From Rhizophagus irregularis (taxonomy: Eukaryota > Glomeromycota > Glomeromycetes > Glomerales > Glomeraceae): a stretch of 64,000 nt of DNA. Position numbers and translations under genes: made by a program. Position 1 is the first letter of the stretch. Every line of letters begins with the position of its first letter. This document shows, piece by piece, positions 20,920 to 51,659 of the stretch. The DNA lies in contig NC_089448.1 in NCBI RefSeq assembly GCF_026210795.1, positions 1,736,001 through 1,800,000 on the forward strand. The letters run 5' to 3'. The notes below the pieces were generated by a model. That model saw only the letters and a program-made list of their open reading frames with translations. It was not told the DNA's origin and did not search any database.

Positions 20920-22775
20920 ATGGCCTATTCAAAAATGGCACGTGCTTTACCTACAAGACCAGATATCAAAAAACTACAGTATTCAGGCGCAAGATTTTCT
21001 AGAGGAGCAATAGCAAGACTTGGACAGCAACTCCAATCCCGGTATCCAACTCATAAATTTCAGATCCTGCTTCCCTATGAAAACTGGAAACCTGGTGGAT
21101 GGACATCAGGAAACCAACCAGCCAGCTTCTTCTCACTCTTGGACCACTATGATGAAGCACAACTACCGGATAATGCAGATCCTGATTACTTTGAACGATT
21201 CATAATTTATGTGAGAGATGCTCCACCGGTTGCAGGGGGATGCAATGGGGAGCTAAATGATTGCCTGTATGAATGCCTGAAGCATATCTATGGTATATTC
21301 TCTAAAATACCCAAGACTATAAAAAAGCCTGAGTATATCAAAAAGGCATTAGGTCTCAATCGTGATGCTCCAGTTCCAGTCTCATATATGGATAAGGTTG
21401 AACAACTTGCAGGAAGCCTTGCACTTAATATTGTAGGGGATTCCACTTGAATTTCCAAGAGCAAATCTGACAGACGTGCAACCCTTATTTTGTCTGAAGG
21501 CCACTACTCTCTTGCACTGAATCCCGGAAGACTCCACCCTAGCAAATTAGATAGAAAACAAAAGTCTCCCTTTGTTTATCGTGAAGATGGGGTTAATAAT
21601 GTAGTAATAATATACAATGATAAGACAGTTAAGTCTCTTACAGTTGGACAGTTTCAGAAAGGTAAGAACTCTGATAGTTACTCCTTCATCCCTATCGAGA
21701 AGAATTGTAAAACTGGAATATATGAAACACTTGAGAAAACATACCAGAGGATCCATGAAGAGCGGGATTCCTTCCTACAGGCTACAAAGAAGTTTGGTCT
21801 AGGAATCAACTTATCTTACCACAACTGGTCGTACAAGAGAACTGCTCTCTGGCTTTTTGAACGGTTTAGTGTAGGGGTTCCAGCCAATGATCCTCTTGAC
21901 CCTATAGAAGCAGAGTGGATAAATGATGCTATGATAGGAGGTCTTATCTGGGCAGACAATGAATGGAAGGGCTATGGAAGGCAATACGACGTGACAAGTT
22001 TGTATCCAAGTATTCAGCAATCAAATGCAAACTTTCCAATCCGACAAGGTAAGTTTCAAATACTCAAAGACTTTGTAGACCACAGAAGTTATGCCTTGTA
22101 TGGATTATTTCGTACTAAGGTAAGTGGTAATGACATTCTCTTCCGACAGAATAAGAGGGAGTCTATACATTCATTGACTTACAACGAGCAAAGAAACTTG
22201 GTCTCGATATACAGTTAATCCAGGATGGAAAGCCAAATGCCTTGATATATGACAGAGAAGCAAGAATTCCTGGGACTGTAATATTTGGTGAGTATGTCTA
22301 CTTTCTCTTCAATATAAAGAACCAGGGTGGCATGGCTAGTTGTGTTGCAAAGAGAGTTCTCAATACATTATGGGGAGCACTCTGCCAAAGGAAACGCAAT
22401 TACAAGACACTCACCACAGATCAAACAGATCCATTCAAGTTTCCGGAAGGCCACACACTTGACTCTATCGTACCAGTAGGATCTGACCAGTGGCGATTCC
22501 AGTTCACAAACCCAGGTAGTCCCTTCAAGGGTAAGTATCCTAGGATCGCTCCATTCTTATTAGCACATGGACGGAAGATGACTTCAGAGTTATTAGAACC
22601 ATATAAGGATAAAGTACGACGCATCCATACAGATGGATTTATTCTAGAGAAACAGCCGAGTAGTCCTACATTTATCACTTGTCCAGAAAATGCATCCAAA
22701 GCATTGAAAGCTCTCAAGTTTGAAAACGCAGGATACTGCCATGTGAAAAATGCAAACAAGGTTATCTGGACATGA
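20920..22775 (+). pseudogene. Family B DNA polymerase (protein-primed type) with OTU-like N-terminal domain
   Basis: Replicates the Polinton. Starts at ATG 20920 (MAYSKMARALP). Residues about 105-200 carry NDCLYECL (Cys115) and, after a TGA at 21448 (probably former CGA), EGHYSLALN; a Cys in a DCLY context followed by a His-Tyr resembles the catalytic pair of OTU cysteine proteases. The polymerase palm follows: motif A YDVTSLYPSI (about 21987), motif B KRVLNTLWGALCQ (about 22348) and motif C RIHTDGFI (about 22620), where HTDG stands for the usual DTDS/DTDG. A frameshift near 22170-22200 breaks motif A from motif B. A 3'-5' exonuclease domain was not identified with confidence. Inactive copy. 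Confidence 0.8.
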
Positions 22776-27634: not shown

Positions 27635-30600
27635 ATGTTAGACAATTCTAATTATGATACATTTGTTCGTAACCCACCCAACTCCGTAGATACTTATAAT
27701 TTTTCAGAAAATGAATCTCTATTTACTACCCTAAATTCTTCCCCTATCCCTAATTCTTTTAATATTTCATCCTTTAATGTTAATGGTCTTCGCCATAATA
27801 GTCAAGTTAAATTTGAACAAATTTCCAACTTTTTCAACCTCAAACATATCTCCTTTGGTGGTATCGTAGATACCCACTTATCTCCCAAACAAATTCATTT
27901 CTTATCTAAACGCCTCCCTAATTATACTGTCTTTTCATCTGATATAGATAAAACTAAACAAGTTAAATCTACTGGTGGCGTTTCCCTTTTTATTGAAAAA
28001 TCCCTTGCTTCCCATGTACAAGATTTTGTTTCACACTCTTCACGTATTTTATCTGTTGATCTATATTTTAAAGGCAACGTTAAATTACGCATTTTTGTTA
28101 TATATATTCCTCCTATTTCTGATTCTAAATTACGATCAGAAACTATTGACCTTCTTTTACACTTATTGGTGCAAACCAAACAACAAAATTTTTATCACGC
28201 TATTTGTGGAGATTTTAATATGCACTTAGACATTTATTATCCTATTTACTTTAATCGCCCTGCTATTGCTTCTCAACGAGCTTATCGTTTGTTATATCAT
28301 CTTTTATCTCATGGTTATGAAGAAACCATTCCTGTTAATGCTTCTACTTCTTTAGGCACCTTTCACCGTGATGACCAAGTTACTCGTATAGACTATGTTT
28401 GGTCTTGCCCGATGTTAAAATGCTTTGCTTTCACTTCCTACATATTTGACGCACATGATACCTGCTCTTCTGACCACAATCCTATCATCACGTATTTTGA
28501 TGACTCACTCTTGGCCGTGTCTATCAAGGTTGCTCATGCTAAACAACTTCAACGACGAACCCGCCGCATTTTCAAATTTGATTCAGTCACTACTCAACAA
28601 TGGGAATCCTTTTCTGTTTACACTGACTCCTTATGCGACGTTCCTCCTTCTACCTTTTCAACATGGCACCTCAATCAACAATGTGAATATTTACATTCCC
28701 GTATCGTGAAAGCTGCTAATGCCTCTCTTCCATCTGTCACGGTTGGTAATCAACATACGCCTACGGTGCCCAAAGATTTGGAAGCTTTAACTCAACACTA
28801 TCGTTTCCTCAGCCGTCTTTTGCATTCGATACGTTTATTGCGAAAATATCCTTCCACATATTATACTAAATATGAACGTATTTGGTCTATTCATTTCATT
28901 CGGCTTCAAAAAATTCTTTATCTTTATAAGAAGGTTATTCCTTCTCCCCCTACTCTACCCACTTCTTTACCTACATGTAGGCAAGACGATTTTAATTTTT
29001 TATTAGAATCTTTAAAGACTATTTCCAGTGCCCTCTACGGCCTCCTTCTTCTTAAAGAAAAAGATTTTCAAGATACTTCTATTCGTGCCAAATTGGAAGA
29101 TAGGGACAACAAATTTGAAACTGATATTTCCTCATTTATTGATTCTGCTCTCTCCAAGACTCGATGTCGTATCACTCTGGATCGTGTCTTTATCGACCAC
29201 CCTGCACAACCAAAACTTTTAACGGACCCGTCTGATATTGATGACGCTGTTATCAACCATTTCCAGAATTCCGTGCCCGTAAAATCATCCCCTCCTGATT
29301 ACATCTCCGCTCTCCCGGATAGATGGTCTTCTGCTTATCGCCCTATGGACGATGTGGATTCCTCTATTTACAATTCTTTATTGGATCCTCCTACTCTTGA
29401 TGAATGGTTGTCTACGGTCACTACTATGCCTAATGACAAAGCTCCTGGTCCTTCTATGATTACTTATGAAATGCTTAAACATCTGGGTTCTAAAACTTCA
29501 GCTTTGATTTTGATCCTGGTCCAATCATGTCTTCGCACTGCAGATATTCATGATTTATGGCGTCAAGCTATGGTTTTCCCTATCCCTAAACCTCACGAAT
29601 GGAAATGTCAACTCAAGAATACAAGACCTATTACTTTACTTGAAGTAATTAGGAAATCTTTGGTCAAACTCTTTTATAATCGTCTCGCTTCCATTTTGGC
29701 TTCGAATAAAGTTCTCAAAGGAGGAAACTTCGCCGGTCTCCCTGGTGGTTCTTGTCGCGACCCTATTGTCGTCCTGGAATCTATTATCCATGATGCTCAT
29801 GTCAACAAATCTTCGCTTTGGATCCTTTCACAAGATATTTCGAAGGCTTTCGACTCGGTTGATCTCAAGATGTTGCGTTTTGCTTTAGAACGCATTAAAC
29901 TTCCTGCTTTTGCTACTAAGTTTATTTTATCCCTTTTTATGAAACGCTCTAATTGCGTTTTTACTGCTCATGGAATTACTCCTTCTTACCGTGTTCGCAT
30001 TGGTATAGATCAAGGCGAAGTCATCTCTCCTTTACTTTGGGTTATATATATAGACCCTTTATTGACTGTTCTTAAGAATGAAATGATGGATCCATATACA
30101 CTTCATGCTCCTTCTTTATCTAATCCCTTGGCTGAGACAAGTCCAGATGGATTACGCATCAACAACTTGGTCTTTATGGACGATTCCACTTTAATTTCGT
30201 CATCTAAATCTGGAATGGAATCGATGCTTTCTATTACGGAAGAATTTTATCAGATCAATAATACTTCCGCTAATCACAACAAATATGTTTTAATTACTAA
30301 TTCGTTACCTCCCACTTCAGCTCCTTCGCCTTCTCCAGTCGTGTTTGACTTGCAATTATCTGGATTGAACAAAGTTCCTTCCATCTCTATTGTGCCCATC
30401 TCCATGAATAGCTCTTTCTGCTTCCTGGGCGTCTGGTTCAATGTCGCTGGATCTCGCGATTTTGTCAAAAAGCAAGTTGCTAGAGAATGCAATTCCTTTG
30501 CGGCTATCGTTCGCCCTGCCAAACTATCTGCAAAACAAGTTGTTTATCTGCACAACACCGTCCTTATTCCAAAATTGGAATATCGCATGCAAGTCACTCA

Positions 30601-33253
30601 CCTCTCCGAACCTGAATGTGCCTCGGCTGCCAGCAGTATCCGTTCTTTGGTTAAACATAAGGCCAATTTTTCACGTGTACTCCCAGATTCTATTCTGTTT
30701 TTATTTCAAGGCTTGGGATTGATTAATTTATTTTTTCATCAATCACAAACACATTTAACTAATTTATTTTTATAAGCTAATTCTTCTTCTTCTTTTATGA
30801 AAAGTTTATTTTTATATAGATTGCGTTTAATTCAATTTTCTTTTTTGATTCCTGTTTCCCCTTTGTTAGTTAAAGATTGGACTATATGGTCTAAACTTTT
30901 TGCTTTTAAACAGGATTATATCGCTTGCACTATTGCTCTCCTGACCGCCACTCCTTTCAAGTTGTTGCGTTCTCGACTTTCAACTTTGCCTGACCTTACT
31001 ATATCTGATGGTCATACACCTTTATTTGATGTTATGACTCCAAAGATTTTTATATCTTACTTCCGACGTCTTAGAAGTTTGCAACTTTATTACCTATCTC
31101 AATTCATCACGCCTCAAGGAACCCATATGATCACTTGGAATGTTTATTTATCCAATCTATCAAGTAGGAAAGGTCATCGAGTCCTCCCGCATAAATGGTT
31201 CAACGACATCCACCAATGCGTCACTATTCCAAATTCCAATTCTCTGCTTTTGGATCAATTCTCCTCCGAAGCTATCTCTTCAAACGTTGACTTGGTTCCA
31301 GCTTTTGGCTCATCTCGAAAATCCATGAAATGGATCGTGACTTTGGATGATGATGGTTCTCCTTTATTTGGAAAACAGCTCAGCAAACAACAATATTCCT
31401 GCAAGATTGTCCATTGGACCTCTGACTGTGTGACTCGTCCTAATGATGTTATCACGCTCACTCCTTGTCCCGGTTGTTCTAAACATGTACTGGTTTCTCA
31501 TACTAAAAATCAACCATCTGATGTTACTCCCTTATGTATCATCCCAAAACTCTCTCCAATTAGATCTTTAATTCTCCCAACTACGCAGGAGCGTATTAGA
31601 CATGACACCACCAATATTACTTCTCCCTTTACTTGGACGGACCTTGATGAGACTGTAAGAACATACTTTGGTCATCTGGACATTCAACCTAATTTTTCAC
31701 AAGTAGATGTGGATACTGTGCCTTCTCCTACTCCTTCCCCTTTGGGCTCGGATGCCTCCCTTGCTTTTGCTGCTTCTCCGTTAGCGACTCCTCCTGACAA
31801 CCATTATTGTTTTTATACCGATGGTTCCTTAATTAACCTTGGCACCCCTGATGTTTCAATGGGTTGGTCTTGGGTTCAAGTCCTAGATGGCGCTGGTTTT
31901 TTCCAATCCATCGCTGCTTATGCTCATGGAATTATTCATAATTGGCCTTCCTCTACAAGAGCTGAAACCGCTGCTATACATGCTGCCCTCACAGTCACTC
32001 CTCCTTCTTCAATGGTCACTATTTATACTGACTCTCAATCTGCCATAGATGGTCTTCGTCTATGTGCTTCTTCTTCTTATTCCAATAGTAGGCTTTATTA
32101 CAAGACCACCAATTTTGAACTTTGGGCCATTATTGAACATCTCATTTCCTCCAAGTCTTTATCCGTCACGGCTGTTAAAGTGTAAGGTCACTCTGGTAAT
32201 TTTTACAATGACTACGCGGACTCTTTGGCCAACTCTGCGCATACTTCTTCTTCAGCAATTCTCCTTTCTGATCTGGATCAAGTATCTCCTCATGATTTCA
32301 TATTAAAATATGGTGATATTTTATGCGAATCTAACCCTCGACGCCTATTCAAGCAATATTCGCAGATGTTGTGGATGCATAGATTAACGCGTTTATCGCG
32401 TTTTAATTTTACTATTACCTTATCTTCTTTTCCAGATTTTGAGATTGATTGGGATCTTACTTGGTTCTCGTTAAATTCTGAACCTCAGCATGATGCCTCC
32501 TTTACTCGTGCTCATGCTTCCTCTCATCGCACCTTCAAATTCAAACTCTTTTTGGAAGATTTACCTACCTTGGAACATCTTAAAAGAATTCGCCCGGACT
32601 TGTATATCGACATTTTATCATGTCGTTCATGCCTTGACTCTAAGGAAGATTTCATGCACTTGTTTATGTGCAAATGTAGACGAACTGCTATGGAACAGAT
32701 TCTTCTCTCCTACCAACATCATTTTATCAACAAACTTCAAGAAGCTGGTGATCTCGTTACGAAAGATCCCTCTTTAATTATTAACAAATTCAAATCTCTT
32801 CCTTGTTGGTCCTTTTCTTCTTCAAATTGGACTTCATATAGCCTTGTCCGTGGCTGCCTTCCAAAATCCTTCGTCGAATTTTTCGATGAACTTTCTGTTC
32901 CACGTAACTCAGCGATGAAGGTCATCTCTGCCATCCACAATTACTTTATCCAAAAGATCAGAAAAAGAATTTGGCTACCGCGCTCCTATGATAAATCTAA
33001 ATGGGAAGACGCGATGAATATTACTCATAAACTCAAACTTTCTCGGCCTTCAAATTTGCCAAAGTCCACGTACTTACCTTTCTCAACTTTACCTCCTCCG
33101 ACCCTTTCTGATGCCGCACGTGACTCCGACGTTGATTATTTAAAGAACTCGATGAAATATGGTTTGCCTTGGTATAATCACTATTCAGGTTTTATGGGTC
33201 GTCTAACGGTACAACTTACTAACAGCTTTAGCAGGGTGGTGTGTCAATTTTAA
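27635..33253 (+). pseudogene. LINE ORF2: APE endonuclease, reverse transcriptase, RNase H, terminal zinc motif
   Basis: The target-primed reverse transcription enzyme. A single frame from ATG 27635 to TAA 33251 is broken by TAA codons at 30773 and 32183, both probably CAA (Gln) originally. Endonuclease motifs: SFNVNGLRHN (about residue 47), CGDFNMHLD (about 192) and SSDHNPII (about 284). RT motifs: NDKAPGPSMITYEM (about 600), LSQDISKAFDSVD (about 733), GIDQGEVISPLLW (about 790) and the catalytic FMDD (about 846-849). The RNase H domain is at about 31800-32250: FYTDGSL, RAETAAIHAAL, YTDSQSAI, and after the second stop GHSGNFYNDYADSLA. C-terminal CRSCLDSKEDFMHLFMCKC (about 32615) is the zinc-like motif typical of I-like LINEs. 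RNase H content places it nearer Tad/I than L1. Confidence 0.85.
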
Positions 33254-33605: not shown

Positions 33606-33782
33606 ATGTCTTACCCTTATATAGCTAACACTATAACTGAACGTCCAATTATTATCGGTAGAGATACCTTTAATTGAATAGTTATGGAATCCCATGATTA
33701 TATTAATAGAAGGCTTGTCCGTAGACAAACTGCACCTCCACCTGAAGAGCAACCTGTATATTTAAATACAGATACAGGACGT
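33606..33782 (+). pseudogene. Polinton hypothetical protein, 5' part (cut by LTR retrotransposon)
   Basis: ATG 33606 starts MSYPYIANTITERPIIIG; a TGA at codon 24 is probably a former CGA. The frame then reads MESHDYINRRLVRRQTAPPP to the LTR edge. It resumes in frame at 44224, on the far side of the LTR retrotransposon. Function not recognised. Confidence 0.6.
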
Positions 33783-34949
33783 TGAGATCCCCCAATTCCC
33801 CCTGTCATCAATTTACAAGGTTGCCACATCGAACGGGCATTCTCATGGTCGAACGAACGATTGAGCGAACAAACAAACGAACGAACGAGCAACCAAACGA
33901 ACAAACACGTGATCAAAACATAATTAACGAACAACAACATCAGCGAACAATATACAACGACATTCTTGGTTCACAAAATAAATAGCGTTAGTAATATAAA
34001 ACGTTGAACGGTATAAAATAAAATTAACTTCTCTGAATTTTCCTCAATTTATATCCACTTTCGATTTCAAACTGCGATAGCTCTCGCTACGAATTATTAT
34101 CTTCCAAAGGTATATATTTAATTCATCTTAAATTTTCATTAATTAAAATTAATTAATCAAACATTAATTAAAGTTTAGGGCGAACCTATTACCTTTAATT
34201 AATATTAAACTTCATTAATAATTAAAAAATAAAACTTATATTTTATTGAGTTCTGTGGATGCGAACTGTGGAATTACTTTGAATTCCGTTCTCTATATAT
34301 ATAATTTTTATGCTACTTTCTATTCTATCTATATACTATCTTTTATGTTCTTTACATATTATCTTTGAACTATCTTTCTAATATACTATCTATATTTTAA
34401 ATACGCTATCTTTTAATATGCTATCTTATATATTATTTTATATATTATCTTTTCTATTATTCAAATATTACATCGTAAAGAAATAATTTATAACCCATCC
34501 TTTGTGGCTGTGTTATCTTTATATATGTTCTTTTTAATATGTTATCTTTTATATTCCATCTTTATACTTTCTTTTCATATTATCTTTTATATTATTTTGT
34601 ATTCTTTAATCTTTCCGACATTATTTTATATGTTCTTTTAATCTACTTTATGTGTTTTGCTTATAATCTATCTTTTGTGGCTTATAATTATTCTTTCTTA
34701 TCGTTCTTATTGTTAAAGATCGCTAAGCCGCAAATGATCGACTCTATTTATCCTATTGGTTCTTTGTCAATCATTCAATAAATATTACATCATGTAGATC
34801 ATTACTCTTCTTAAATGTTTATCCTTTTCGGCTAATTATTTATCCATCCACACCAATCCACGATTAATTTGTTTGTTCTTAATACTTGATAATTACATTT
34901 GGCGGTTGAATTTTATCATCTTTTCGTGCTTGATATTTGGCCGTTTACA
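33783..34949 (-). repeat. 3' LTR of the Ty3/gypsy element (1167 bp)
   Basis: On the plus strand it starts TGAGATCCCCCAATTCCCCC and ends GGCCGTTTACA. It differs from the other LTR at only one site that I noticed (C at about 34193 versus T at 43463). A stretch of GAACGAACGA-type repeats lies at 33850-33910. Open frames such as 34539-34781 occur identically in both LTRs and are not genes. Confidence 0.92.
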
Positions 34950-34964
34950 TTATCCCCCTCTTCG
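34950..34964 (-). promoter_or_regulatory. Polypurine tract candidate
   Basis: On the minus strand GAAGAGGGGGATAA directly precedes the 3' LTR. This is the expected place and composition for plus-strand priming. The rest of 34965-35231 is the short 3' untranslated part and shows no ORF. Confidence 0.65.
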
Positions 34965-35231
34965 CTATTTGTGACCTCACAAATAACTTTAAAAGAATCA
35001 AACTCGGGTCTCGTTCATAATAATTCTAATTGAATCGAACTCGGGTCTTATCGAATACCTCTTTTCCTTCAATTACTATTTTTGGTGTAAATCCCCTTCG
35101 ATCATAAAATTTCTTTAACCATTCTCCATTTTGATATTGTCAATTATTCTCTTGTAATTATTTTCTTCCATAATACCTCTTTAATTGATTTCGCTTCTAA
35201 ATTTGTTATTTTCGTTATGTGTTCTGTATTT

Positions 35232-37313
35232 TTAGTTCTGTGCTCTTCTCCATTTCTCCACCTCTTTAAATACTTTTCTCCAACTACTATTGTCATTTTT
35301 AACTTTTACTCGACTGTATCTTTTAGTATCTTTGTACACACCCTGATTTTCCTCAAACATTCTAACCATGTCCAAATATTCATCCTTCTTTAATGTTGGA
35401 TATGATGATTTTTCCGTTTTCTTTGTTTCTCTTCCAATGTAATTTTTCCAACATACGTCACCATCTTTTTCTAAAAATATTACTATTGATTTATCTATTG
35501 TTTCTTTCAATCTGAATATTTCTTTTTCCATCTCATGATTTCCATGCGGAGTAATTAATCCTCTGTCAAAACTTTTCGTCTTTTGATAATAATATTCACA
35601 ATATGGTGATTTGTCTAAAATTATTATATCTGTATCTTCATCGTACTCTACCATTCTTCTATTTATTTGTTCCACTACTTCTTTTCTGAATTTCCATTCT
35701 GTATCCATCTTTGATTCGTGAAATTCATCTTTATCTTTTCTTCTTCTTTTATAAGTATTGAATCTTACTTTTAATCCTTGTTCTTCCCATTCTTTAATTA
35801 AATTTTGTACTATACTTGTTTTTCCCAATCCGTCTACTCCATTGATTATTACTATTTCTGGTTGTTCCTCCACTATCTTTAATAATCTACTTAGTGCGTC
35901 GGCGTTCGTATTTTCTTTTCCCGACCTATGTACTACTTCGAAATTATATTGCTGTAATTCCATTACCCATCTTGCTCTTCTTCCTTTCGGTATTTTTGCG
36001 TTCATTAATCCTTTTAATGCACTGTGATCTGTTATTACTTTAAATTTTCTATCGATTAAATACTTATGAAAATGTTGAATTCCCCAAACTATTCCTAAAC
36101 ATTCCAATTCTGTTATCGGGTAATTTTCTTCTGCTGGTAATAAACTTCTACTTGCATATGCTATTACTACTTCTTTTCCTTTTTCATCTTTTTGACTTAA
36201 TACTGCACCTAATCCTTTTCCTGATGCATCTGTTATTAATAGAAATTCTTTCTTCCAATCTGGATGTCGCAATATTGGATATTGTATTAACTTTTCTTTT
36301 AATTTTTCAAACGCTTCTTGTTGCTCTCTTCCCCAAATGAAAGGTATTCCCTTCTTTCTTAAATCACTTATTGGTCTTGCTATCCTTGAAAAATTCTTCA
36401 CGAATTTTCTGTAATATGAACAAAGTCCTAAAAATGATCTTACTTCTTTCACCGTTGTTGGTGCCTTCATTTCTTTTATCTTTTCTATCTTTTTATCGTC
36501 TGGCCTTAATCCATCATTTCCTACTATATGTCCTAAAAATTCTATATTTCTTTCCAAAAATCTACATTTCTTTAGTTTTATTATTAAATTATTCTCCTGT
36601 AACTTCTTTAATACTTTTTCCACATGTTCCATATGGTCTTTTAAATTTTCTGAATATATCATAATATCGTCAATATATACTACTACAAAATCGTTTATGT
36701 ATTCTTCTAATATTTCATCCATTAATCTTTGAAATGTTGCTGGTGCATTAGTTAAACCGAATGGCATTACATTATACTCAAATAATCCCTTTGAACATAC
36801 AAATGCTGTTTTTTCTTTGTCTTCTTCTTTCATTTCTACTTGATTAAATCCCGCCGCTAAATCTATACTTGAAAACCATTTTGCTTTTCTATATTTGTCT
36901 AACAATTCATCCATCCTTGGTAAAGGAAAACTATCCATTATAGTTATCTTGTTTAACTTTCTGTAATCAATACAAAATCTATATTTTCCTGTTTTCTTTC
37001 CTGCTAATGTAACCGGTGAACTCCACGGACTCTTTGATTTTCTTATCCTTCCTTGTCTTAATAATTTATCTACTTCTTCACTTATAAATTTTGCCTTCTC
37101 ATCTGTTTCTTTGTATCTTCTTTGCTTTATTGGTTCTACCCCATCTTTTATTTTTATCTCATGTTGCGCCGCTTTTGTTCTTCCTTCTATTTCTTTGTCA
37201 TATTCCAAAATATCTTGGTATTTTAATAATAATTTTACCATATTTTCCCAAATTGGTTCTTCCACTTTCCCTATACTTAATTTCTGCATAAATTTTTCAC
37301 TAGGTTTAAGCAT
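35232..37313 (-). CDS. pol: Pol: reverse transcriptase, RNase H, thymidylate-kinase-like P-loop domain
   Basis: 693 residues. RT (about 55-260): SSIDLAAGFNQVE (Asp151), MPFGLTNAPATFQ, and catalytic YIDD at 213-216, followed by thumb and connection (GHIVGNDGLRPDD, FLGLCSYYRKFV). RNase H (about 355-477): ITDASGKGLGAVL, TELECLG, ITDHSALKGL and NADALSRL supply the acidic residues. Eight residues later a kinase fold begins: IVIINGVDGLGKTSIVQNL, with Walker A GVDGLGKTS at 492-500, then IIILDKSPYCEYYYQK (DKSPY 567-571, like the DRY/DRSPYS loop of thymidylate and deoxynucleoside kinases), VIFLEKDGDVCWKNYIGRE (strand plus Arg-containing lid region) and YLDMVRMFEE. There is no integrase HHCC or DDE motif. 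The ORF is open throughout; its first Met lies 36 bases beyond the protease stop in another frame. Confidence 0.88.
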   Translation of the reverse strand: MLKPSEKFMQKLSIGKVEEPIWENMVKLLLKYQDILEYDKEIEGRTKAAQHEIKIKDGVEPIKQRRYKETDEKAKFISEEVDKLLRQGRIRKSKSPWSSPVTLAGKKTGKYRFCIDYRKLNKITIMDSFPLPRMDELLDKYRKAKWFSSIDLAAGFNQVEMKEEDKEKTAFVCSKGLFEYNVMPFGLTNAPATFQRLMDEILEEYINDFVVVYIDDIMIYSENLKDHMEHVEKVLKKLQENNLIIKLKKCRFLERNIEFLGHIVGNDGLRPDDKKIEKIKEMKAPTTVKEVRSFLGLCSYYRKFVKNFSRIARPISDLRKKGIPFIWGREQQEAFEKLKEKLIQYPILRHPDWKKEFLLITDASGKGLGAVLSQKDEKGKEVVIAYASRSLLPAEENYPITELECLGIVWGIQHFHKYLIDRKFKVITDHSALKGLMNAKIPKGRRARWVMELQQYNFEVVHRSGKENTNADALSRLLKIVEEQPEIVIINGVDGLGKTSIVQNLIKEWEEQGLKVRFNTYKRRRKDKDEFHESKMDTEWKFRKEVVEQINRRMVEYDEDTDIIILDKSPYCEYYYQKTKSFDRGLITPHGNHEMEKEIFRLKETIDKSIVIFLEKDGDVCWKNYIGRETKKTEKSSYPTLKKDEYLDMVRMFEENQGVYKDTKRYSRVKVKNDNSSWRKVFKEVEKWRRAQN

Positions 37314-37348
37314 CTTTTCTGTCTCTCTCTCTTCAGAGCCAAGACTCT

Positions 37349-37852
37349 CTATTTAAAATTCTGGTGCATTTTGAATACCTCTCCCTCATCGTTACTTTCA
37401 TATTCTTCATCGTCCTCGCTCTCTTCGCTTTCATATATTGCTTCTCTTTCATATCCTACTGGGATCGTTATTATTTCTCCCCGTTCTTCTATTCTTAAGG
37501 TATGATCTTCGAAATTTATTTTTGCATTATACAGCTTCCATATATCATTTCCCAAAATTAGATCCTCCTCTTCTGAATCGATTACTTCAACGTCTCTTAA
37601 TATCTCTAATTCATCTTTGTATCTTAAAGTTATATTTGCCTTTCCTAATGCTGCTATCTTTTGCCCATTTGCTATTGTACATCTAAATTTACTTTTTCCA
37701 AATATAGGTATATTCAATCTTCTTCTTAATTTATCTGTTATCACGCTTACTGCTGCTCCGGTATCTATTATTACACTCACTAATTGATCTTCAACTTCTA
37801 ATTCCGTTCTCATTGCTGTAGTTCTTTTCTCTTCATCTTTCATAGTTCCCAC
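37349..37852 (-). CDS. Retropepsin (protease) of the Ty3/gypsy element
   Basis: Aspartic protease that would mature Gag and Pol. 167 codons from the first Met, with the active-site motif VIIDTGAAVSVI (Asp30), a flap region, and ILGNDIWKLY near the C-terminus as the second family signature. The C-terminal part is acidic. It lies in the same frame as gag, separated only by a TGA, so it is probably made as a Gag-protease readthrough product. The following pol frame is offset. Confidence 0.85.
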   Translation of the reverse strand: MGTMKDEEKRTTAMRTELEVEDQLVSVIIDTGAAVSVITDKLRRRLNIPIFGKSKFRCTIANGQKIAALGKANITLRYKDELEILRDVEVIDSEEEDLILGNDIWKLYNAKINFEDHTLRIEERGEIITIPVGYEREAIYESEESEDDEEYESNDEGEVFKMHQNFK

Positions 37853-37869
37853 CGAGTGTAGTCAATTTT
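37848..37869 (-). promoter_or_regulatory. Gag/protease stop codon in leaky TGA-CTA context
   Basis: On the minus strand gag ends AAA AAT TGA CTA CAC and the protease follows in the same frame with no other stop. UGA followed by CUA is the best-known readthrough context in plants, animals and viruses. The arrangement suggests programmed readthrough for protease synthesis; no test of efficiency is possible from sequence. Confidence 0.6.
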
Positions 37870-40800
37870 TCTCGTTTATACTTCTTGGTCTATATGTTCC
37901 TTCTCTTAATTGTTTATGGTACTTAGGATTCCCGTTTACTAATTGTCCATATGTTATATTCGCTCTACAATTTTTCACATCTTCCACAATATCATAAGGT
38001 GGTATTCCGTCAGTTAGTCTTGGTCCATATTCTCTGGGCTTTGTTGGTCCTCCTGCTTCTCTCCATTTTCTTAGTCCTTCTGTTGGGTCGTAATAAGCTT
38101 GCCTTTTATTACTCCACCTCATTCCTTTTGGTCCCATTGGTCTATCCCCATTTTGTTCAGTTCGTTCAGGTATATAATTTGGTGCTGTTGTACCAGTTGG
38201 TATTTCTCTATCATCCATTCTATTTCCTGCTTCTCTTAATTCTTCTTGTAAATTTCTTCCTTCATCATTGTTTTTATATCCCACTATTGGACTCGTCCTT
38301 CTTGATTGTCTTCTTCCTTTTACTGCGTCATCTTTTGCGTATAATTCACTATGATAATTTAATTCTCTATCTTCATAATCATCGTAATAGCCTTGTGTAT
38401 AATACATTTCACCGTATTGTGGTTCCTCGTATCCATATTCATCATAATAGTATTCTTCTTGATCATCATATTCGTCTATCATATTTAATCTTGCATTCCT
38501 TCCTTCAGGACAATTATTCTTATAATGCCCCACTCTATTACATCCGTAACATGTTGGTACCCTAATCTGATTTGGTTGATAACTATTCCTATTACCATTA
38601 TTTAATCTCCTTCCCATATTTGATCGATACCTATTCTTATTATCGTTATTTAATCTTCTCTCCATACTTGCTATTTGTGCTTCTAATTTACTGATTTTTG
38701 CCTTTTCTTTAAACATTTCAGCTAATTCGTCCTCATAATTTTCGTTCAATGGTTTTGCGAACATATTTTGTCTATTATCGTCTTTTCCGATGTCTATCTT
38801 CGTACTAATTGACGTTCCTATTGCTTTTCTTAAAAATTCGTCTTTCGCACCTTCTTCCCTTACTGCTATTTCTATCGCCCCATTTAAGTTCGCTGGATTC
38901 TGTCTTCTAACTTGATACCCTATTGTTGGTTCTAATCCTTCAATATAAAAATCTACTTGATATTCGTCTGCTAAGGCATGTCCTCTAGTTGCTATTCTTA
39001 ATATTTGTCTAAATCTTCTTGTATATTCTTCAACACTTTCACTTGTTTCTTGTCGGGTTTTTCTTAATTCTAGCATTTTCTTTCTTCTAACATCCTCTCT
39101 GGTAAATCTTCTTTTTATTCTATGCTTTAAATCATTATCATTATCTGCATCTGCCCAATTCACTAAGTTTCCCGCATTTACTTCTTTCATTTCATTATAC
39201 CATTGTGCTGCTGCCCCTCTTAAATGTGCTGCTGCGTATACCGCTTGTCTTACGCCATTAGCCCCCGCTGCTTTTCCGACTGCTGCAAATGCTACCTCGA
39301 ATTGTCTAACCCAATCAGTAACATCTTCATCTTCTCTTCCATAAAAGAGTGGTATACTAATTGTTCCTCCTGCTTCGTTCCCTGCATTTTCGATCCTTTC
39401 TATCAAACTTCCTCCTGCTCCTACTGCTGCGTTCAAAGTATTTGCTGGAAAACCTAAAGCATTTTCTATCACTCTTTTTATTTGACCCTCAGTTGCCATC
39501 TTCAATATATTCTCTTGAAATAAATCTTGTAAATTGTAATCAGATAATTCACTTTCGTTGTCAGAATTTTTAATATTTAATGAACTATTCGTATCTGAGT
39601 TTTGACTTAAGTCGCTATCCCCTCTATTTATAACATTTTCAACTTCATCTTCAAATTCTTCTTCGTTAAAATTTTCAATATCTTCATCCCATCTTTCATC
39701 CGGACTTAGTATTTCTCCAATCTTTTCTGAATCATCTGTATTATCTTCTTCTGATTCTTCATTATCGCTTCTTTCGCCACTTTCTTCACTATCTATTATT
39801 CCCGCTTGTTCTTTCAACAACTTATCTAATTTTTTTTTCAATTCTTTTTCCGACTCATCTTTATTTTCTTGAAAGATTTCAATGAATTCTTTATCTAAAA
39901 TTTCTCCATCTGTATATCCCATACTAGTTAATCTCAACAATTCTTCTTCAGTTATTATTGTTCCAATATCTTCAAAAATCTTCTGTAATCTTTTTACCCG
40001 ATCATCAATTTCATCGATATTTTCTTCTTCACAATCTTTGCATACCGTTCCTCCTAATCTAAACATGTCATTCATCCATCTTATTTCGCATCTTTCACAC
40101 CAAGTTGTATTCTCATTTAACCACTTATGAATCTCCTTTCTTAATTCTCTATCTTCTAATTCTATTATTCCCATATATTCTTCCACAAATTCTTTAGTTA
40201 TTATTATCCGATTATTTACCCCAAAACTCTTCATTCTTTGAATTTCCGACACATCTATTTCATATCCCAACTTTTCTAAATCATCTTTTAATTCTGCTAA
40301 CTCATCTTGTTCATTTTTCCGCATTTCTTTAATACATTCCCCGCATTCACTATCCGCTTCGTCCATTTCGAACCTTCTACTGCCGCATCTTTCACATATT
40401 ATTGTTTCTTTTTCTAACCATTCTTTTATCCTCAATTCTTTTTCCCTTTCATCCATTTCCTCTACCTCTTGAACTTTATCCATAAATATTTTTGTTACCA
40501 ATATATCCATTTCTATCATCAACTTTATTCCTATCTTCCAAATGTATCTCAATTGATCTTCGTCTATCGAGCTTGTCCTTCTTTTTAATTCACTAAATTT
40601 CCATGATTTATCTCCTATTATTATCTCTAATTCTTCCTCAGAACTATTTTCCAATTCGTAACTTGCTGGACTATCTTCACTTTCCGAATCTTCTGGTTCT
40701 TTTGTAAAACCCCTAGTATCTATAAATATCCTTATTATCTTTTGTATCATATTCTTATGATGTTCTTGAACATTATCTATTCTTACATTTTCGTATATTA

Positions 40801-41428
40801 TTCTTCTCCTTAATTCCTTCACTTTTTCTTCACTTTCCGCTATCTTTTCTTCTTCATATAATAATTCTTTGAACTTCTCTATTGCTCCTACTTCTGCTTT
40901 TACAGCTCTAACTTCTCCTAATGCGACTCTATACCATTGCCAAAATTTCTCAAATCTTCTTTCGACATCCCAATCCTCCAAAATATATTTGTGTTCTATT
41001 AATTCTGGATTTCCAATTAATCTATCAAATACTTCATTCTCTAGATTTCTTTCAATACAATCTCTTACAATTACTAATATAATTGTTCGTAATCCTTTTT
41101 CTTTCATCTTTGGTTGTATTCTATATCTTATTGATTCTGTTATTCTATCCATTATGTCTCTACATTTCCCTTTGTGTATTGTATCTTCCCTTTCTGAATT
41201 ATTCATACTTAATAAATCTAATACTCCTTTAATCGTTACGTCATTATATATTATTATTGCATCTTCAAATTTAAATAATGCGTCCCAAAATTTCTTGAAT
41301 ACTATTGGTTCATTTACTATTGGATAACATAATTCACAATTTAAACATTCGTCCAATTCTTCCGTTCCTAATTCGTGTTCCTTTTTATGTGTTCTATATT
41401 CGCTTTCCCATTGATGGTACCATTCCAT
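37862..41428 (-). CDS. gag: Gag with long zinc-ribbon-containing N-terminal extension
   Basis: 1188 residues, much longer than a usual Ty3 Gag. The C-terminal half is standard: capsid-like region about 690-870 (IPLFYGREDEDVTDWVRQFE, AAAQWYNEM, ESVEEYTRRFRQIL) and a CCHC knuckle CYGCNRVGHYKNNC at 960-973, then Tyr/Glu-rich sequence. The N-terminal 640 residues are unusual: two tandem modules of about 100 residues (337-436 and 437-537), each opening with a CxxC..CxxC pair (Cys345/348/362/365 and Cys444/447/463/466) and followed by helical, Leu-rich sequence, and then a long acidic region. Met644 (MATEGQIKRVIENAL) would give a Gag of normal size if internal initiation or cleavage occurs. Start chosen as the first Met of the open frame. 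Confidence 0.8.
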   Translation of the reverse strand: MEWYHQWESEYRTHKKEHELGTEELDECLNCELCYPIVNEPIVFKKFWDALFKFEDAIIIYNDVTIKGVLDLLSMNNSEREDTIHKGKCRDIMDRITESIRYRIQPKMKEKGLRTIILVIVRDCIERNLENEVFDRLIGNPELIEHKYILEDWDVERRFEKFWQWYRVALGEVRAVKAEVGAIEKFKELLYEEEKIAESEEKVKELRRRIIYENVRIDNVQEHHKNMIQKIIRIFIDTRGFTKEPEDSESEDSPASYELENSSEEELEIIIGDKSWKFSELKRRTSSIDEDQLRYIWKIGIKLMIEMDILVTKIFMDKVQEVEEMDEREKELRIKEWLEKETIICERCGSRRFEMDEADSECGECIKEMRKNEQDELAELKDDLEKLGYEIDVSEIQRMKSFGVNNRIIITKEFVEEYMGIIELEDRELRKEIHKWLNENTTWCERCEIRWMNDMFRLGGTVCKDCEEENIDEIDDRVKRLQKIFEDIGTIITEEELLRLTSMGYTDGEILDKEFIEIFQENKDESEKELKKKLDKLLKEQAGIIDSEESGERSDNEESEEDNTDDSEKIGEILSPDERWDEDIENFNEEEFEDEVENVINRGDSDLSQNSDTNSSLNIKNSDNESELSDYNLQDLFQENILKMATEGQIKRVIENALGFPANTLNAAVGAGGSLIERIENAGNEAGGTISIPLFYGREDEDVTDWVRQFEVAFAAVGKAAGANGVRQAVYAAAHLRGAAAQWYNEMKEVNAGNLVNWADADNDNDLKHRIKRRFTREDVRRKKMLELRKTRQETSESVEEYTRRFRQILRIATRGHALADEYQVDFYIEGLEPTIGYQVRRQNPANLNGAIEIAVREEGAKDEFLRKAIGTSISTKIDIGKDDNRQNMFAKPLNENYEDELAEMFKEKAKISKLEAQIASMERRLNNDNKNRYRSNMGRRLNNGNRNSYQPNQIRVPTCYGCNRVGHYKNNCPEGRNARLNMIDEYDDQEEYYYDEYGYEEPQYGEMYYTQGYYDDYEDRELNYHSELYAKDDAVKGRRQSRRTSPIVGYKNNDEGRNLQEELREAGNRMDDREIPTGTTAPNYIPERTEQNGDRPMGPKGMRWSNKRQAYYDPTEGLRKWREAGGPTKPREYGPRLTDGIPPYDIVEDVKNCRANITYGQLVNGNPKYHKQLREGTYRPRSINEKN

Positions 41429-43052
41429 TGTATGCTTTAGTTAAATTGCTATGAATATCCATCCAGAATTTCAATCGGACTCCTCTCTCTATATATATAT
41501 ATTTCGCTCTTATCATTTCTATTTTTGATCTTCTAAACATTCTTTTATCTTTGAATAGATTACTTCTTTCAATCTTTCGATTCCATCTTTCGGTTCTATA
41601 TATTTACTATGCCATATTTTACTATTAATTTTTACTGCGCCTTAAAATTTCAAAAATTTTTCTAAGTCCACGATCTCCTCAGGCTGCGGAGGTTTTTACT
41701 GTGCCATCAAATTTATCTTTTATCACCGATCTCCATAATTTCACATGTCACATCTTTTCGTCACTGTGATTCATAGTTTCACTTATCACCTCTTTTTGTC
41801 ACATCTTTTTGTCACATCTTTTTGTCACCAAGATCCATAATTTCACATATCACAAACTTTATGAAAATTTTGGAGTTTTAAGGTTTGCGAATTTCCAATC
41901 TCTCTTATCGTCCACATAAATCCTTCTTATTATATATTCTATATTATATAAATTAATCTATAACACACAAAATGTCGTTCTTTTCAGATAAATGTCTTTC
42001 TTTTCAAATAAATGTTCTTTTTCAAATAAATATTCCTTTTCAAATAAATGTTCTTCTTTTAAATAAATGTCCTTCTTTTCGGATTTTACTCTATTATTAA
42101 ATACTGCACGTAATGTTCATTATACGGCTCGTTAATGTGTAAATATCCTTCTATTTTTTTCTTCTTTTAACGGAACATTGTAATGAAAGCGTGAACTAGG
42201 ACACTACACCAGGAACCCTCATCTGAAATGTAGCCTAGGACCTGTAACAATACAACATATCAGTCTTTTCCTCCTTCGTTGGCCGACTCGTCTCTTAACG
42301 GGTGAATCTAATCTTCCGAAATCCAGTTTCAAAAGTCATCAGCTATCCATAAAACTCATCTAAACCAACTTTCTTAAATTGGTGGACCTATACTGAGCTT
42401 ATCTCTATCTTTTACCCGCTGGAGATACCCCACATTGAAATAAAAGCACGACAGTTTTCAGGTTTGTCCCATTTTATCCATCCAATGTTTCTTGATAGTA
42501 GGTGTCTTTACAATTTTCATTCCCCGTCCCCAAAGCAATTCACGTGTTATTGAGCTGGGTATCCAGATTTGACGTAACCCATACGTTATAATCTTTAATA
42601 TCGAAGAATAAAAATTTTCCAATCTCGAGCATTTATCCAAAATCCAAACTCAGAGGTAACCCATACCACACAGATGAACCCCGGATAATACATTGGTGTT
42701 CTCCCATTATTAATCTTTATTTCAAAATCCATCTTTCACTTCCACATCCCCTTATGAAATTTCTCAGGTACTTTATTCCCGAAAGAAATATTCTTGTGCT
42801 TTCTATCGATTAAATGATTACTTGCACAACTTCAAACTTCAATCTTTCACCTTTTCAAGTTTTTAACTCGATTAAATCCTTGTTGATTTATTGGTTCCTT
42901 TTGAACTCGTCAAAACCTGAAATCTAAAAATAAATTCTAAAATAAAATATTGATTAATAATACCTATCAGTGACTTACTAACGAAATTAAATTTTCATAT
43001 TAGTAATAATCATGTGATGATGATCATTTCCTTTCTCGGAGCATGCACCATA
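41429..43052 (-). other. 5' leader of the LTR retrotransposon
   Basis: About 1.6 kb between the 5' LTR and gag without a convincing ORF. It contains a short tandem of TTTTTGTCACATC (about 41785-41825) and repeats of TTTTCAAATAAATGTTC (about 41990-42080). This is where packaging and dimerisation signals would be expected, but none can be named. Confidence 0.5.
43035..43050 (-). promoter_or_regulatory. Primer-binding site candidate
   Basis: On the minus strand TGGTGCATGCTCCGAG starts 2 nt after the 5' LTR. TGG pairs with the CCA end of a tRNA. I cannot name the tRNA from memory with confidence. Confidence 0.55.
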
Positions 43053-44219
43053 TGAGATCCCCCAATTCCCCCTGTCATCAATTTACAAGGTTGCCACATC
43101 GAACGGGCATTCTCATGGTCGAACGAACGATTGAGCGAACAAACAAACGAACGAACGAGCAACCAAACGAACAAACACGTGATCAAAACATAATTAACGA
43201 ACAACAACATCAGCGAACAATATACAACGACATTCTTGGTTCACAAAATAAATAGCGTTAGTAATATAAAACGTTGAACGGTATAAAATAAAATTAACTT
43301 CTCTGAATTTTCCTCAATTTATATCCACTTTCGATTTCAAACTGCGATAGCTCTCGCTACGAATTATTATCTTCCAAAGGTATATATTTAATTCATCTTA
43401 AATTTTCATTAATTAAAATTAATTAATCAAACATTAATTAAAGTTTAGGGCGAACCTATTACTTTTAATTAATATTAAACTTCATTAATAATTAAAAAAT
43501 AAAACTTATATTTTATTGAGTTCTGTGGATGCGAACTGTGGAATTACTTTGAATTCCGTTCTCTATATATATAATTTTTATGCTACTTTCTATTCTATCT
43601 ATATACTATCTTTTATGTTCTTTACATATTATCTTTGAACTATCTTTCTAATATACTATCTATATTTTAAATACGCTATCTTTTAATATGCTATCTTATA
43701 TATTATTTTATATATTATCTTTTCTATTATTCAAATATTACATCGTAAAGAAATAATTTATAACCCATCCTTTGTGGCTGTGTTATCTTTATATATGTTC
43801 TTTTTAATATGTTATCTTTTATATTCCATCTTTATACTTTCTTTTCATATTATCTTTTATATTATTTTGTATTCTTTAATCTTTCCGACATTATTTTATA
43901 TGTTCTTTTAATCTACTTTATGTGTTTTGCTTATAATCTATCTTTTGTGGCTTATAATTATTCTTTCTTATCGTTCTTATTGTTAAAGATCGCTAAGCCG
44001 CAAATGATCGACTCTATTTATCCTATTGGTTCTTTGTCAATCATTCAATAAATATTACATCATGTAGATCATTACTCTTCTTAAATGTTTATCCTTTTCG
44101 GCTAATTATTTATCCATCCACACCAATCCACGATTAATTTGTTTGTTCTTAATACTTGATAATTACATTTGGCGGTTGAATTTTATCATCTTTTCGTGCT
44201 TGATATTTGGCCGTTTACA
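43053..44219 (-). repeat. 5' LTR of the Ty3/gypsy element (1167 bp)
   Basis: Same length and almost the same sequence as 33783-34949, with the target duplication ACGT directly outside it at 44220-44223. Near identity implies insertion too recent for visible divergence. Promoter elements were not identified individually. Confidence 0.92.
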
Positions 44220-44223
44220 ACGT

Positions 44224-44895: not shown

Positions 44896-45231
44896 ATGAA
44901 AATTATGGATGGAGAGCCATATGAAGATATTAGGAAGTGGCTTCTCGAACAGCTTATAGCCATAGGTTGTGACAGTGGAGAAATTGCTTTATATCAATTT
45001 CTAAGGGATACATATCCAGATGGTATCGACGAGCCTTTCACTACATTCTATGAGAACTATGTAAATCATATAAGTAATCCAATGACTAAGAACTTTGCTT
45101 CTCGTGCTTCAGGAGCAATAGGGTTGAAGGCTAAGATGTTAAGGATTGACTTTGAAGGCCGTAAAAAAAGTGCTATGATTCTTAGAGCTTCTGCAGACGA
45201 ATTACTTGATATTCTCACAAGATACTATTAA
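44896..45231 (+). CDS. Polinton hypothetical protein, 111 aa
   Basis: Open from ATG 44896 (MKIMDGEPYEDIRKWLLEQL) with no internal stop; mostly helical by composition, ending ASADELLDILTRYY. Not recognised. Its 3' end overlaps the end of the convergent ATPase gene by 17 bp. Confidence 0.5.
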   Translation: MKIMDGEPYEDIRKWLLEQLIAIGCDSGEIALYQFLRDTYPDGIDEPFTTFYENYVNHISNPMTKNFASRASGAIGLKAKMLRIDFEGRKKSAMILRASADELLDILTRYY

Positions 45232-46201
45232 TCCCTACTTGTAATGCTCGACGGTCCATGTGGCTCTTAGAAAAGATCTGTAGAAGGACTTCAATACCTT
45301 CTATTATTTTTTTATTATCCAGAGGGCGACTAGACTTCAGGGCTTCATATCGGGAGAATAACTCCTTCACATTCTCAGTTTTCAGAGTTTCAGTCTTTGC
45401 AGTCCTACCCTGTACTTTTGCTAAGAAGTCCTGAAAGTCAGCTCCTAGGGTCTTACCAGAGAGTCCATAAGCTTCCCGAAAAACATATTTAATCCAGGTA
45501 TCTGTATTCTTGGCTAAGATACCAGGTACAAGTAAATGTTTACATTCTTTAGGGGATGGAAATACCCGAGCAAATTCAATCAAGTGTCCACCTTTTTTTG
45601 CTTCAGATACAGCTTTCTGACCATAGGGACTGAACTTGGATCGAACTGTGATTGAACTGGATTCAGACTGAGATCGAACTGGGTTCAAACTTGGATTAAA
45701 CTGAGATTGAACTGAGATCAAACTAGGATCGAACTGAGATTGCTCTGTGATTGAACTGAGACTAGTATCCCATCTTACTTGAATGGACAGTGGATCACTC
45801 TTGGACCGTCTAAGATCAAACACTACAAATTCATGTTGCAGAGTAAGATCATCAATTACTGGTGCTAATGACTCTGATTCTTCTGTATATAGGCGGATGA
45901 TTCTCTTGGTATCTGTAAGGCTCCCATGACCTCCATGCAGTGAGATGTAGTTAACATTTTCTCGAATAGCCTTAGGAATGGCAAAGAATCTTTGGGCTAC
46001 ATAAATACATGAAATATTTTTGTGTCGTCCATGTGTAAAGTAACCAGTGATGAGATCCTGGATTTTTTTAGGTGCATCCATCAGATCCTCGAAGATTACT
46101 ACAGTAACTTGAGTAGGGTCAAAGGAGTCAATCTCTGGAATCTCACTATGGGTTACTGCAGTGAATGGGATCTTCTCCTCTTCGAAAAAATCATGTACAA
46201 C
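45215..46201 (-). pseudogene. A32-like packaging ATPase, C-terminal part (cut by hAT MITE)
   Basis: The frame continues from 47308-47463 across the MITE (KWAVVH joins DFFEEEKIPF when one 8-bp duplication is removed). Walker B is VTVVIFEDLMD, followed by RHKNISCIYVAQRFF and KAIRENVNYI, the sensor-like Gln and Arg-Asn signature of the A32/FtsK-like packaging ATPases of Polintons and large DNA viruses. After the ATPase fold comes a repeated SQFDPSL/SQFNPSL stretch and a helical tail to 45215. In active Polintons this motor would load DNA into particles. Confidence 0.75.
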
Positions 46202-47299
46202 TAGTGCCTCAACCCGTATCCGGATCAATCCGGATTGATCCAGATTTTTTTTTTTTTCGGATATCCGGATTTTCACGGTTTTCATCCGGATTATAAACTG
46301 GATGAAAAATATCCGGTTTGACCTGGAATCCGGATGAAATTATTATTATTTTTTTTTTATTAATAATAATTTTGCTGATTCATAAAGATCTATATTTAAA
46401 TGATATTATGGCTAATTATTTTTGCGCCTAATACCAATTTTTTTATTAAAATTTATTAAATTCATATTTGTTATATTAAACTTTTTAATACAGTAAGTTT
46501 AAGAAGATTTTTCAGTTATAATTTATTTATTGAAATTTGTATCAGATTTGTTTATTTAAATTTATACATTAACAAATAACAAATAATTTTAGATTTCACA
46601 TTCAAACATTCAAAAGAAAAAAAACTTTATATTATTTTTGTTACAACAAAATAATAATTATTGTTTTAAATGAAAAATTGTTCAATATTATAAATTTATA
46701 TAATTATAACAACTTTTTTTAAAAATTAAAACTAGTGTTATATAATTTGATTCAAATGATTCTTTAATTTTTGAAAGAAGAAACAAATCCTTAAAAAATT
46801 GCCTTACTAACCCAACACATCTATTTATAGTAATCTTTAGCTGTATATAAAAATATCTTGTTTAAAATTTCATAATTAGTTAATTTACAAAGAAATGTTA
46901 AACAATAGTCTGAGACAATGCTGAAATAATATGAAATTGTTTTAAATAAAAGTATTTAATGAAATTGGAATTATGTAAATTTCGTGGTCTTGGATAATTT
47001 TGGCCAAATTTGTAATTCTGGCCGAAATTAACATCACGTGACACCGGAAAAATAGTTTAGCCACCGGGCAAAAAATTTTTTATCGGCTGGCATGAAAATT
47101 TAATGTTACACAATTTGTAATTCTGGCCGGCGTTATGAATTCTGGCCAGAATTATTGCTGATCATTTGTAAATCCAATCCAGTTTCCGGTTTCTATCCGG
47201 ATTATCTGATCCGGATTCAAAATCCGGGTCAATTCAGATATAATCCGGATTTTTTTTTGTATAATCCGGATGATGGTTTTCATCCGGGTCGAAGCACTA
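46202..47299. mobile_element. hAT-type non-autonomous element, 1.1 kb, in the ATPase gene
   Basis: Ends TAGTGCCTCAACCCG (left) and TAGTGCTTCGACCCG (right, other strand); an exact 8-bp duplication TGTACAAC borders it (46194-46201 and 47300-47307). Subterminal ATCCGGAT-rich repeats lie at both ends. The middle is AT-rich with no gene. Its right third (about 46995-47165) contains a block with AATTCTGGCC, ATCACGTGA and AATAGTTTAGCCACCGGG also present in the MITE at 63452. Confidence 0.85.
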
Positions 47300-50536: not shown

Positions 50537-51659
50537 TTATTCCCAAAATTTGCGAATTAAGTCAGGGACATCCTCCTTCAACCGGTCAGCAGGTTCCCAA
50601 GTAGCCTCAGTGTCTGGATAGTGCTCCCACTTAACCAAATACTGGTCTTGACCTTTTCTAATGCGATGCCGAAGTATCTGCTCAGGAACAAATCTTTCAG
50701 GTTGTCCTCTTATCACAGAGTCAGGTGGAGGCTTTTCATTAATAGGAACTACTTGCAATTCCTTTCGGGTATATGCACATCTGGATACACCTAATCGACC
50801 ATGTGGTCCATTAAGGAGATATGTAGGAGGCTGTTCGGGTGAGAGTATCATTTTTTTGATTACACGAATGTTTGAGTTCCATCTTATGTCTTCTGTACGG
50901 AATTTTCTGTGAAGTTTGTTACCAAGTACAGAAATAGGTTCATCTAACTTGACTCTGACACGTGTTCCTTCAGAGAGGAGGTCTGTCTTTTTTGACACTT
51001 TGGGTGACCCTGTCGGAATGTCTGGGGGATTTCTCTGCCAGAGTTCATTTACTTTACTCACTATATTATGGAAATCTTCTGACCATTCCACAGATGTCAC
51101 CCCGGTTTTCAACTCCTGTGCTACCATTCGTTTAAGAAGGGGTTTTTGAATGGCTTAGATAGCTCTTTCAGCATAAGATTGCTGTTTATGCCTTCCTGGC
51201 TCTCCAAACCTCATCATTACCCTAGGCTGTTCAGGAAAAAATCACGTACCTGGTCGTTAGTGAATTCTGATCCGGAGTCTGTCTCCAGTCAGTGTATTGG
51301 AGGCTTGATACGATTTCTTCTGTAGATTTTGACAAACCCGTTTAGAACTCTATTTGCAGTCTTATCCTTTAGGGGTTCTGCATCAACTCTCTTTCCTGCA
51401 ACTTCCACCACTACGAGAAAATAGTGGAATCCTTTGGGGTCAACTGGCATCTCTGCAAGATCTGCCTGATGTGTTGCATTTGGTTTCCATACAATTACCT
51501 TTGGGCGTTCTGTTGACTTTTCCTTTAGGGGCTTTTTGTATAGGTTGTAGTGCTCTTCACCTTTTAGAATTCATGCTGATACTCCAGAGAGATTGTAGTA
51601 CTTATAGTAATTCTCTAAGTGTGAATTATTACGACAAATTAAAGGAATGGTTTTAGACT
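50537..51659 (-). pseudogene. Polinton integrase (retroviral type) with C-terminal chromodomain
   Basis: DDE integrase that inserts the element. From the 5' side: GEEHYNLYKKPLKEKS, core strand HQADLAEMPVDPKGFHYFLV (first Asp), LETDSGSEFTNDQV (second Asp), QQSYAERAI (Glu), then an SH3-like segment (LSEGTRVRVKLDE) and the chromodomain ILRHRIRKGQDQYLVKWEHY plus EATWEPADRL to the end at 50537. In-frame TGA codons near 51572 and 51292, a TAA near 51155 and a frameshift near 51215 disable it; the nonsense codons are consistent with C-to-T change. Only the part downstream of 51127 is continuously open. Convergent with the Gag-protease gene. Confidence 0.8.

Follow-up and report, generated by a model that had tools for sequence, protein, structure and literature searches.

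A Ty3-like LTR retrotransposon of Rhizophagus irregularis with a nucleotide-kinase-like domain in Pol and a remnant of integrase

Non-autonomous LTR elements are mobilised in trans, lacking a protein needed for their transposition. Reverse transcription in particles depends on a supply of dNTPs, which is low in non-dividing cells, and some retroviruses encode a dUTPase or target the host's control of dNTPs. Passages of PMC5408684 place a dUTPase in Pol between the protease (PR) and the reverse transcriptase (RT) in elements of bdelloid rotifers, and record it also from LTR elements of basidiomycetes, a fungal precedent. In dUTPase-bearing retroviruses and LTR elements, according to the same passages, this nucleotide-metabolism enzyme of Pol is sometimes situated between RT and integrase (IN).

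Here we describe an LTR retrotransposon in a 64-kb window (the whole stretch of DNA that was analysed) of the R. irregularis genome. It shares with Ty3/gypsy elements (Metaviridae) the LTRs, the target-site duplication, a probable primer site, a polypurine tract, a capsid-like gag and the order PR-RT-RNase H. Unlike them, it has a kinase domain in its Pol, and integrase is present as a stump only. The kinase differs from dUTPase both as an enzyme and in fold, being a P-loop kinase. With the thymidylate kinases (PF02223) and deoxynucleoside kinases (PF01712) it shares the P-loop and the fold over most of the domain, but it is fused to RT-RNase H and its profile scores fall below the cut-offs of those families. 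In contrast to other elements mobilised in trans, the element keeps gag, PR, RT, RNase H and the added kinase, and misses integrase only.

LTR elements whose Pol includes an extra enzyme of nucleotide metabolism are a known kind; the enzyme found here appears to be new. A reading of this locus from its sequence alone (hereafter the sequence-only reading) knew of no such LTR element, and our search of the open-licence PMC literature likewise found no description of an LTR retrotransposon with a thymidylate or nucleoside kinase in Pol. In the available text of two papers on R. irregularis transposable elements (PMC11075540, PMC8647823) no word begins with “integrase”, and the kinase passages there concern expanded protein-kinase gene families. 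The main text of a paper on endogenous giant viruses of R. irregularis (PMC10640383) mentions no kinase, NUDIX or thymidylate.

Structure of the element

The following features were located in the window.

33783..44219, minus strand: Ty3-like LTR retrotransposon, 10,437 bp (LTRs, target-site duplication, gag-PR-RT-RNase H order)
43053..44219, minus: 5′ LTR, 1167 bp, a single mismatch to the 3′ LTR
33783..34949, minus: 3′ LTR, 1167 bp, direct repeat of the 5′ LTR
33779..33782: target-site duplication ACGT, copy 1
44220..44223: target-site duplication ACGT, copy 2
43033..43050, minus: probable primer-binding site, TGG-initial, 2 nt inward of the 5′ LTR (by eye)
34950..34963, minus: polypurine tract GAAGAGGGGGATAA, adjoining the 3′ LTR (by eye)
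37862..41428, minus: gag ORF, 1188 aa, with a long N-terminal extension (Pfam Retrotrans_gag 1.1e-12, Ty3_capsid 8.9e-10)
37349..37852, minus: aspartic protease, in the gag frame beyond one TGA stop (gag-asp_proteas 6.5e-09)
35232..37313, minus: Pol ORF, RT-RNase H-kinase, 693 aa (open frame and Pfam)
36522..36998, minus: reverse transcriptase domain, Pol 106-264 (RVT_1 5.9e-45)
35946..36260, minus: RNase H domain, Pol 352-456 (RT_RNaseH 1.2e-37)
35235..35864, minus: thymidylate/deoxynucleoside-kinase-like domain, Pol 484-693 (structure model, fold matches, family alignment)
35814..35840, minus: Walker A motif GVDGLGKTS, Pol 492-500 (family alignment)
35601..35615, minus: DKSPY motif, Pol 567-571 (family alignment)
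35029..35133, minus: remnant of the integrase C-terminus, with a stop codon directly after it at 35026-35028 (tblastn, randomisation)

The single Pol ORF was as the sequence-only reading had described it, and the LTR ends (TG..CA) and the 4-bp duplication on both flanks were also as reported. With one mismatch between the two LTRs, the recent insertion proposed there was upheld. The same reading had placed the stop of Pol 283 bp from the LTR; the gap was confirmed at 282 bp. It had seen no integrase motif in the element, and there is indeed no intact or working integrase, but the 35-aa remnant had escaped it.

Profile matches, including RT_RNaseH_2 (1.1e-36) in Pol, and similarity to Ty3-type Pol proteins suggest that the element is Ty3-like. 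RT-RNase H was 96-98% identical to that of six R. irregularis records (P0003, P0004, P0006, P0007, P0011 and P0017), in keeping with a Glomeromycotina host, R. irregularis or a close relative. The order gag, protease, RT, RNase H is that of Ty3/gypsy, while an integrase following RNase H is missing. With its integrase reduced to 35 residues, the element is a non-autonomous derivative of Ty3/gypsy and not a full member.

In gag, the capsid-like domain occupied approximately residues 724-859 and was followed by a possible zinc knuckle at 959-975 (zf-CCHC 0.016, under its Pfam cut-off). The N-terminal extension comprised 643 residues before MATEGQ, the usual gag start as judged by eye, and contained, also by eye, two CxxC...CxxC stretches resembling zinc ribbons. 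At the gag/protease boundary (37859-37864, minus strand) a single TGA was followed by CTA, a context prone to readthrough. Since the Pol frame differs from that of gag and protease, a single event of recoding, splicing or initiation would not suffice to express gag-PR-Pol.

The window also held pieces of other mobile elements. A Pox_A32-like packaging ATPase (5.3e-05; 45215-46285, minus), a DUF5906 match (2.9e-18; 18823-19575, plus) and a DNA-polymerase-B-like motif seen by eye with no Pfam match (20920-22775) resemble fragments of Maverick/Polinton-type DNA elements. Transposase_21 (tnp2) pieces were found at 197-2599 (minus, 1.1e-09) and 56478-57077 (plus, 4.8e-10). A LINE-type ORF at 27635-30775 (plus) had an RVT_1 match (1.1e-22), together with an endonuclease-like part that narrowly missed its cut-off. 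Finally, a chromodomain ORF at 50537-51127 (minus, 2.1e-17) may represent the end of integrase in a further Ty3-like element.

The kinase-like domain and its relatives

The sequence-only reading had recognised a thymidylate/deoxynucleoside-kinase-like domain in Pol and had proposed a profile comparison. By profile the match was weak: Thymidylate_kin (PF02223) scored 3.1e-4 and 20.9 of 27 bits against the window Pol, below the Pfam gathering score, with other P-loop families close behind. AAA_28 and AAA_14 also matched 11 out of 11 family members, and the deoxynucleoside kinase profile PF01712 matched four of the 11 (best 8e-4) and was not listed for the window protein. Among PDB sequences the best matches were to FtsY (7.1e-4, for the most part over the P-loop) and to adenylate kinase, whereas the match to thymidylate kinase reached just 0.05. 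A search of solved structures with a 52-row alignment was swamped by RT-bearing rows. The AlphaFold2 model of the domain built from this alignment had a pLDDT of 90.7 and a pTM of 0.87, and it matched both the thymidylate kinase and the deoxynucleoside kinase folds, at 9-17% identity to the listed structures. Thus, weak by profile alone, the predicted kinase fold is secure from the model and its structure matches, in agreement with the sequence-only reading. The two folds were tied, and so favour no one substrate.

To assess conservation of the motifs, 135 segments of 132 proteins were aligned and counted without that of the window itself. Among the rows covering each position, the Walker A lysine was kept in 102 out of 104, and in DKSPY the D was kept in 114 out of 117 and the K and Y in all 117. 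The P-loop, the D-[KR] motif and the arginines are presumably comparable with those of the thymidylate and deoxynucleoside kinase families. It is this conservation, and not the openness of the frame, that counts as evidence; open stretches of 215 codons were not rare (411 of the 14,816 stretches sampled outside the element).

Searching with Pol residues 480-693 retrieved 35 proteins, 29 of them from R. irregularis or Rhizophagus clarus. RNase H and the kinase occurred in one protein in 30 of the 35, although P0002 had a short RNase H piece only. A profile search added 96 proteins, including some from Glomus cerebriforme and R. diaphanus, which brought the kinase to four named species; in two G. 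cerebriforme models (P0093, P0099) a piece of RNase H was joined to the kinase. A one-off chimera, the alternative raised in the sequence-only reading, was ruled out by recurrence in the 35 and 96 proteins found.

Where integrase parts were found with the kinase, the kinase came first: in P0028 (R. clarus), which ends early in the integrase core, in P0029, which lacks the core, and in P0031, a single kinase-integrase ORF without RT (both R. irregularis). P0034 was the only model with both RNase H and integrase; besides these it comprised protease, RT and a partial kinase, of which the C-terminal part was present. In P0121 the middle of the kinase was apparently joined to an integrase tail, with no integrase domain by Pfam, and this is perhaps a separate deletion. 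Most of these architectures are database gene models, several of them visibly mis-spliced (P0003, P0004 and P0006 lack YIDD). P0028 fell in a different part of the kinase tree from P0029 and P0031, with weak support, and a single origin is possible. The tree contained 75 rows, 12 near-duplicates and segments shorter than 150 aa being left out and P0129 (120 aa) added by hand. Among 18 hand-picked proteins of the 96 from the profile search, apparent stand-alone kinase ORFs measured 251-267 residues, 17 of the 18 began with Met, and their ends were similar within subgroups. As many relatives are such stand-alone ORFs, RNase H-kinase-integrase is not certain to be the ancestral order; support in the kinase tree is weak.

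Identities of the kinase and of RT-RNase H were correlated (r 0.69, 153 pairs) among 18 proteins chosen for sufficient length of both domains. There were clear exceptions. P0012 and P0013 were 67% identical to the window in RT-RNase H and 86-87% identical to it in the kinase; P0014 and P0016 matched each other at 93% in RT-RNase H and at 74% in the kinase. This suggests, from the sequence identities, that the kinase module may have been exchanged between subfamilies, the alternative being mis-joined gene models. P0015, like P0012 and P0013, carried a near-window kinase on the RT of another subfamily, an apparent module swap.

A JGI record, P0032, is a fusion of NUDIX and a related kinase (46% identical), and no retroelement domain was found in it. 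P0129 and P0132 were partial and more distant relatives, and the stretch preceding the kinase in P0129 resembled the NUDIX-kinase linker stretch of P0032. As judged from these similarities, P0032 may hint at the origin of the kinase, and all three are possible non-transposon kin. A viral or phage donor was sought by tblastn of the window kinase and P0032 against 50,697 phage records, with no match. Scans of IMG/VR with queries A1 and A4, the whole Pol and a DNA pattern, and of GTDB genome contigs with A1, confirmed none; such scans are seeded by exact matches to short peptides, so that distant relatives can escape them.

The integrase remnant

Three-frame translation was applied to the 282 bp that separate the stop of the kinase from the LTR. 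The stump was 54% identical over 35 aa to P0034 residues 1058-1092, the last of that protein (tblastn against the element, E 1.7e-07), and we take it to be the end of the GPY/F module of integrase. It scored 46.2 bits, whereas 1000 random tails, drawn from the dinucleotide transitions of the real one and scored against the same three integrases, reached 30.0 at best. A second candidate, corresponding to the N-terminal side of integrase, was rejected, as it scored 23.1 bits, crossed a stop and was reached by nine of the 1000 random versions.

When 111 Pol-type proteins were compared with the element by tblastn, 135 pieces were aligned, of which the stump alone fell in integrase, if one sets aside three alignments of RT-RNase H extending 8-13 residues beyond the estimated integrase start. 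Matches of six other queries, with integrase ahead of RT, were confined to RT-RNase H. The 111 queries were P0028, P0029, P0031, P0034 and 107 new proteins, all matching the P0034 integrase; the new ones were found among the best 120 of 409 matches in a search for longer kinase-integrase proteins, and none had the kinase by profile. Integrase ahead of RT was observed in the Ty3-type Pol proteins P0158, P0194, P0196, P0208, P0230 and P0236.

The sequence-only reading had put the kinase in the place of integrase. This replacement is ruled out by the four relatives in which the kinase precedes integrase, together with the stump behind the kinase stop. The same two observations indicate that an ancestor had integrase behind the kinase and that it was deleted secondarily.

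None of 15 near-identical relatives continued into integrase; these are at least 92% identical over at least 60 kinase residues, and some of them possibly represent the same locus from several assemblies, so that they do not give a copy number. Their C-termini were RRAQN in seven, RQA in three, RKVQN in one and RKH in one. P0005 and P0090 ended in MVKEIL, a reading of the stump region in a different frame, and P0017 had a tail unlike the others. The sequence AATGGAGAA occurred at the end of the kinase and was repeated 124 bp downstream, and in P0005 and P0090 the DNA between the two repeats may have been deleted in a further step, if these records are not gene-model joins.

Proposed function and spread

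We consider it probable that in this Ty3-like lineage the Pol kinase feeds the dNTP supply and that the window subfamily lost its integrase and spread in trans. The kinase of the lineage, of the thymidylate/deoxynucleoside kinase superfamily and present in Rhizophagus and its kin, sits behind RNase H and, where integrase is kept, ahead of it; it would be made within Pol and packaged with RT. There its most likely activity would be phosphorylation of dTMP or of some other deoxynucleotide or deoxynucleoside, which would increase the local dNTP supply for reverse transcription. In the window subfamily an internal deletion would have taken nearly all of integrase, leaving the C-terminal stump, and the integrase-less branch would have spread with integrase from integrase-bearing relatives. 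A role in raising dNTP supply is the most likely one in view of the fold, the conservation, the position in Pol and the dUTPase precedent. That integrase was supplied in trans we infer from the target-site duplication, the near-identical LTRs and the repeated integrase-less relatives. A more detailed version, in which the Pol kinase of a diverse fungal LTR lineage derives from a NUDIX-kinase type nucleotide enzyme and was inherited and swapped between subfamilies, with part of the dNTP supply made in each particle and an integrase-less branch that spread by using the integrase of its relatives, is put forward tentatively.

Other explanations are less likely. The domain could be a P-loop NTPase for other work, such as RNA or nucleoprotein handling, phosphorylation of RNA ends or host interaction; many P-loop families matched with similar weak profile scores, and we regard this as unlikely, though the most credible of the alternatives. 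Somewhat less credible is that the window copy is one dead deletion derivative, the working members retaining an integrase, whether in this ORF or in a separate one. The kinase-integrase ORF of P0031 and the apparent separate join in P0121 would fit such a derivative, but none of the 15 near-identical relatives, which may include one locus from several assemblies, runs into integrase, and the near-identical LTRs show that this copy moved recently.

LTR elements capture host fragments, and stand-alone forms of the kinase exist, as would be expected if a host or parasite kinase gene had been acquired by chance and kept as a useless passenger. However, the kinase is found in several diverged subfamilies and in the four named species, with near-invariant motifs and identities like those of RT, which makes a passenger improbable. 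An artefact of assembly or gene models is scarcely credible: several database models are visibly mis-spliced, but in the window the ORF is unbroken DNA, and the junction of RNase H with the kinase is shared by several records of R. irregularis and by others such as P0014.

If the preferred reading, with a kinase feeding dNTP supply and integrase provided in trans, is true, a Pol-borne dNMP or deoxynucleoside kinase would be a new answer to dNTP limitation, in a coenocytic symbiont. The element may, in addition, show in nature how a retrotransposon can lose integrase only and yet still amplify.
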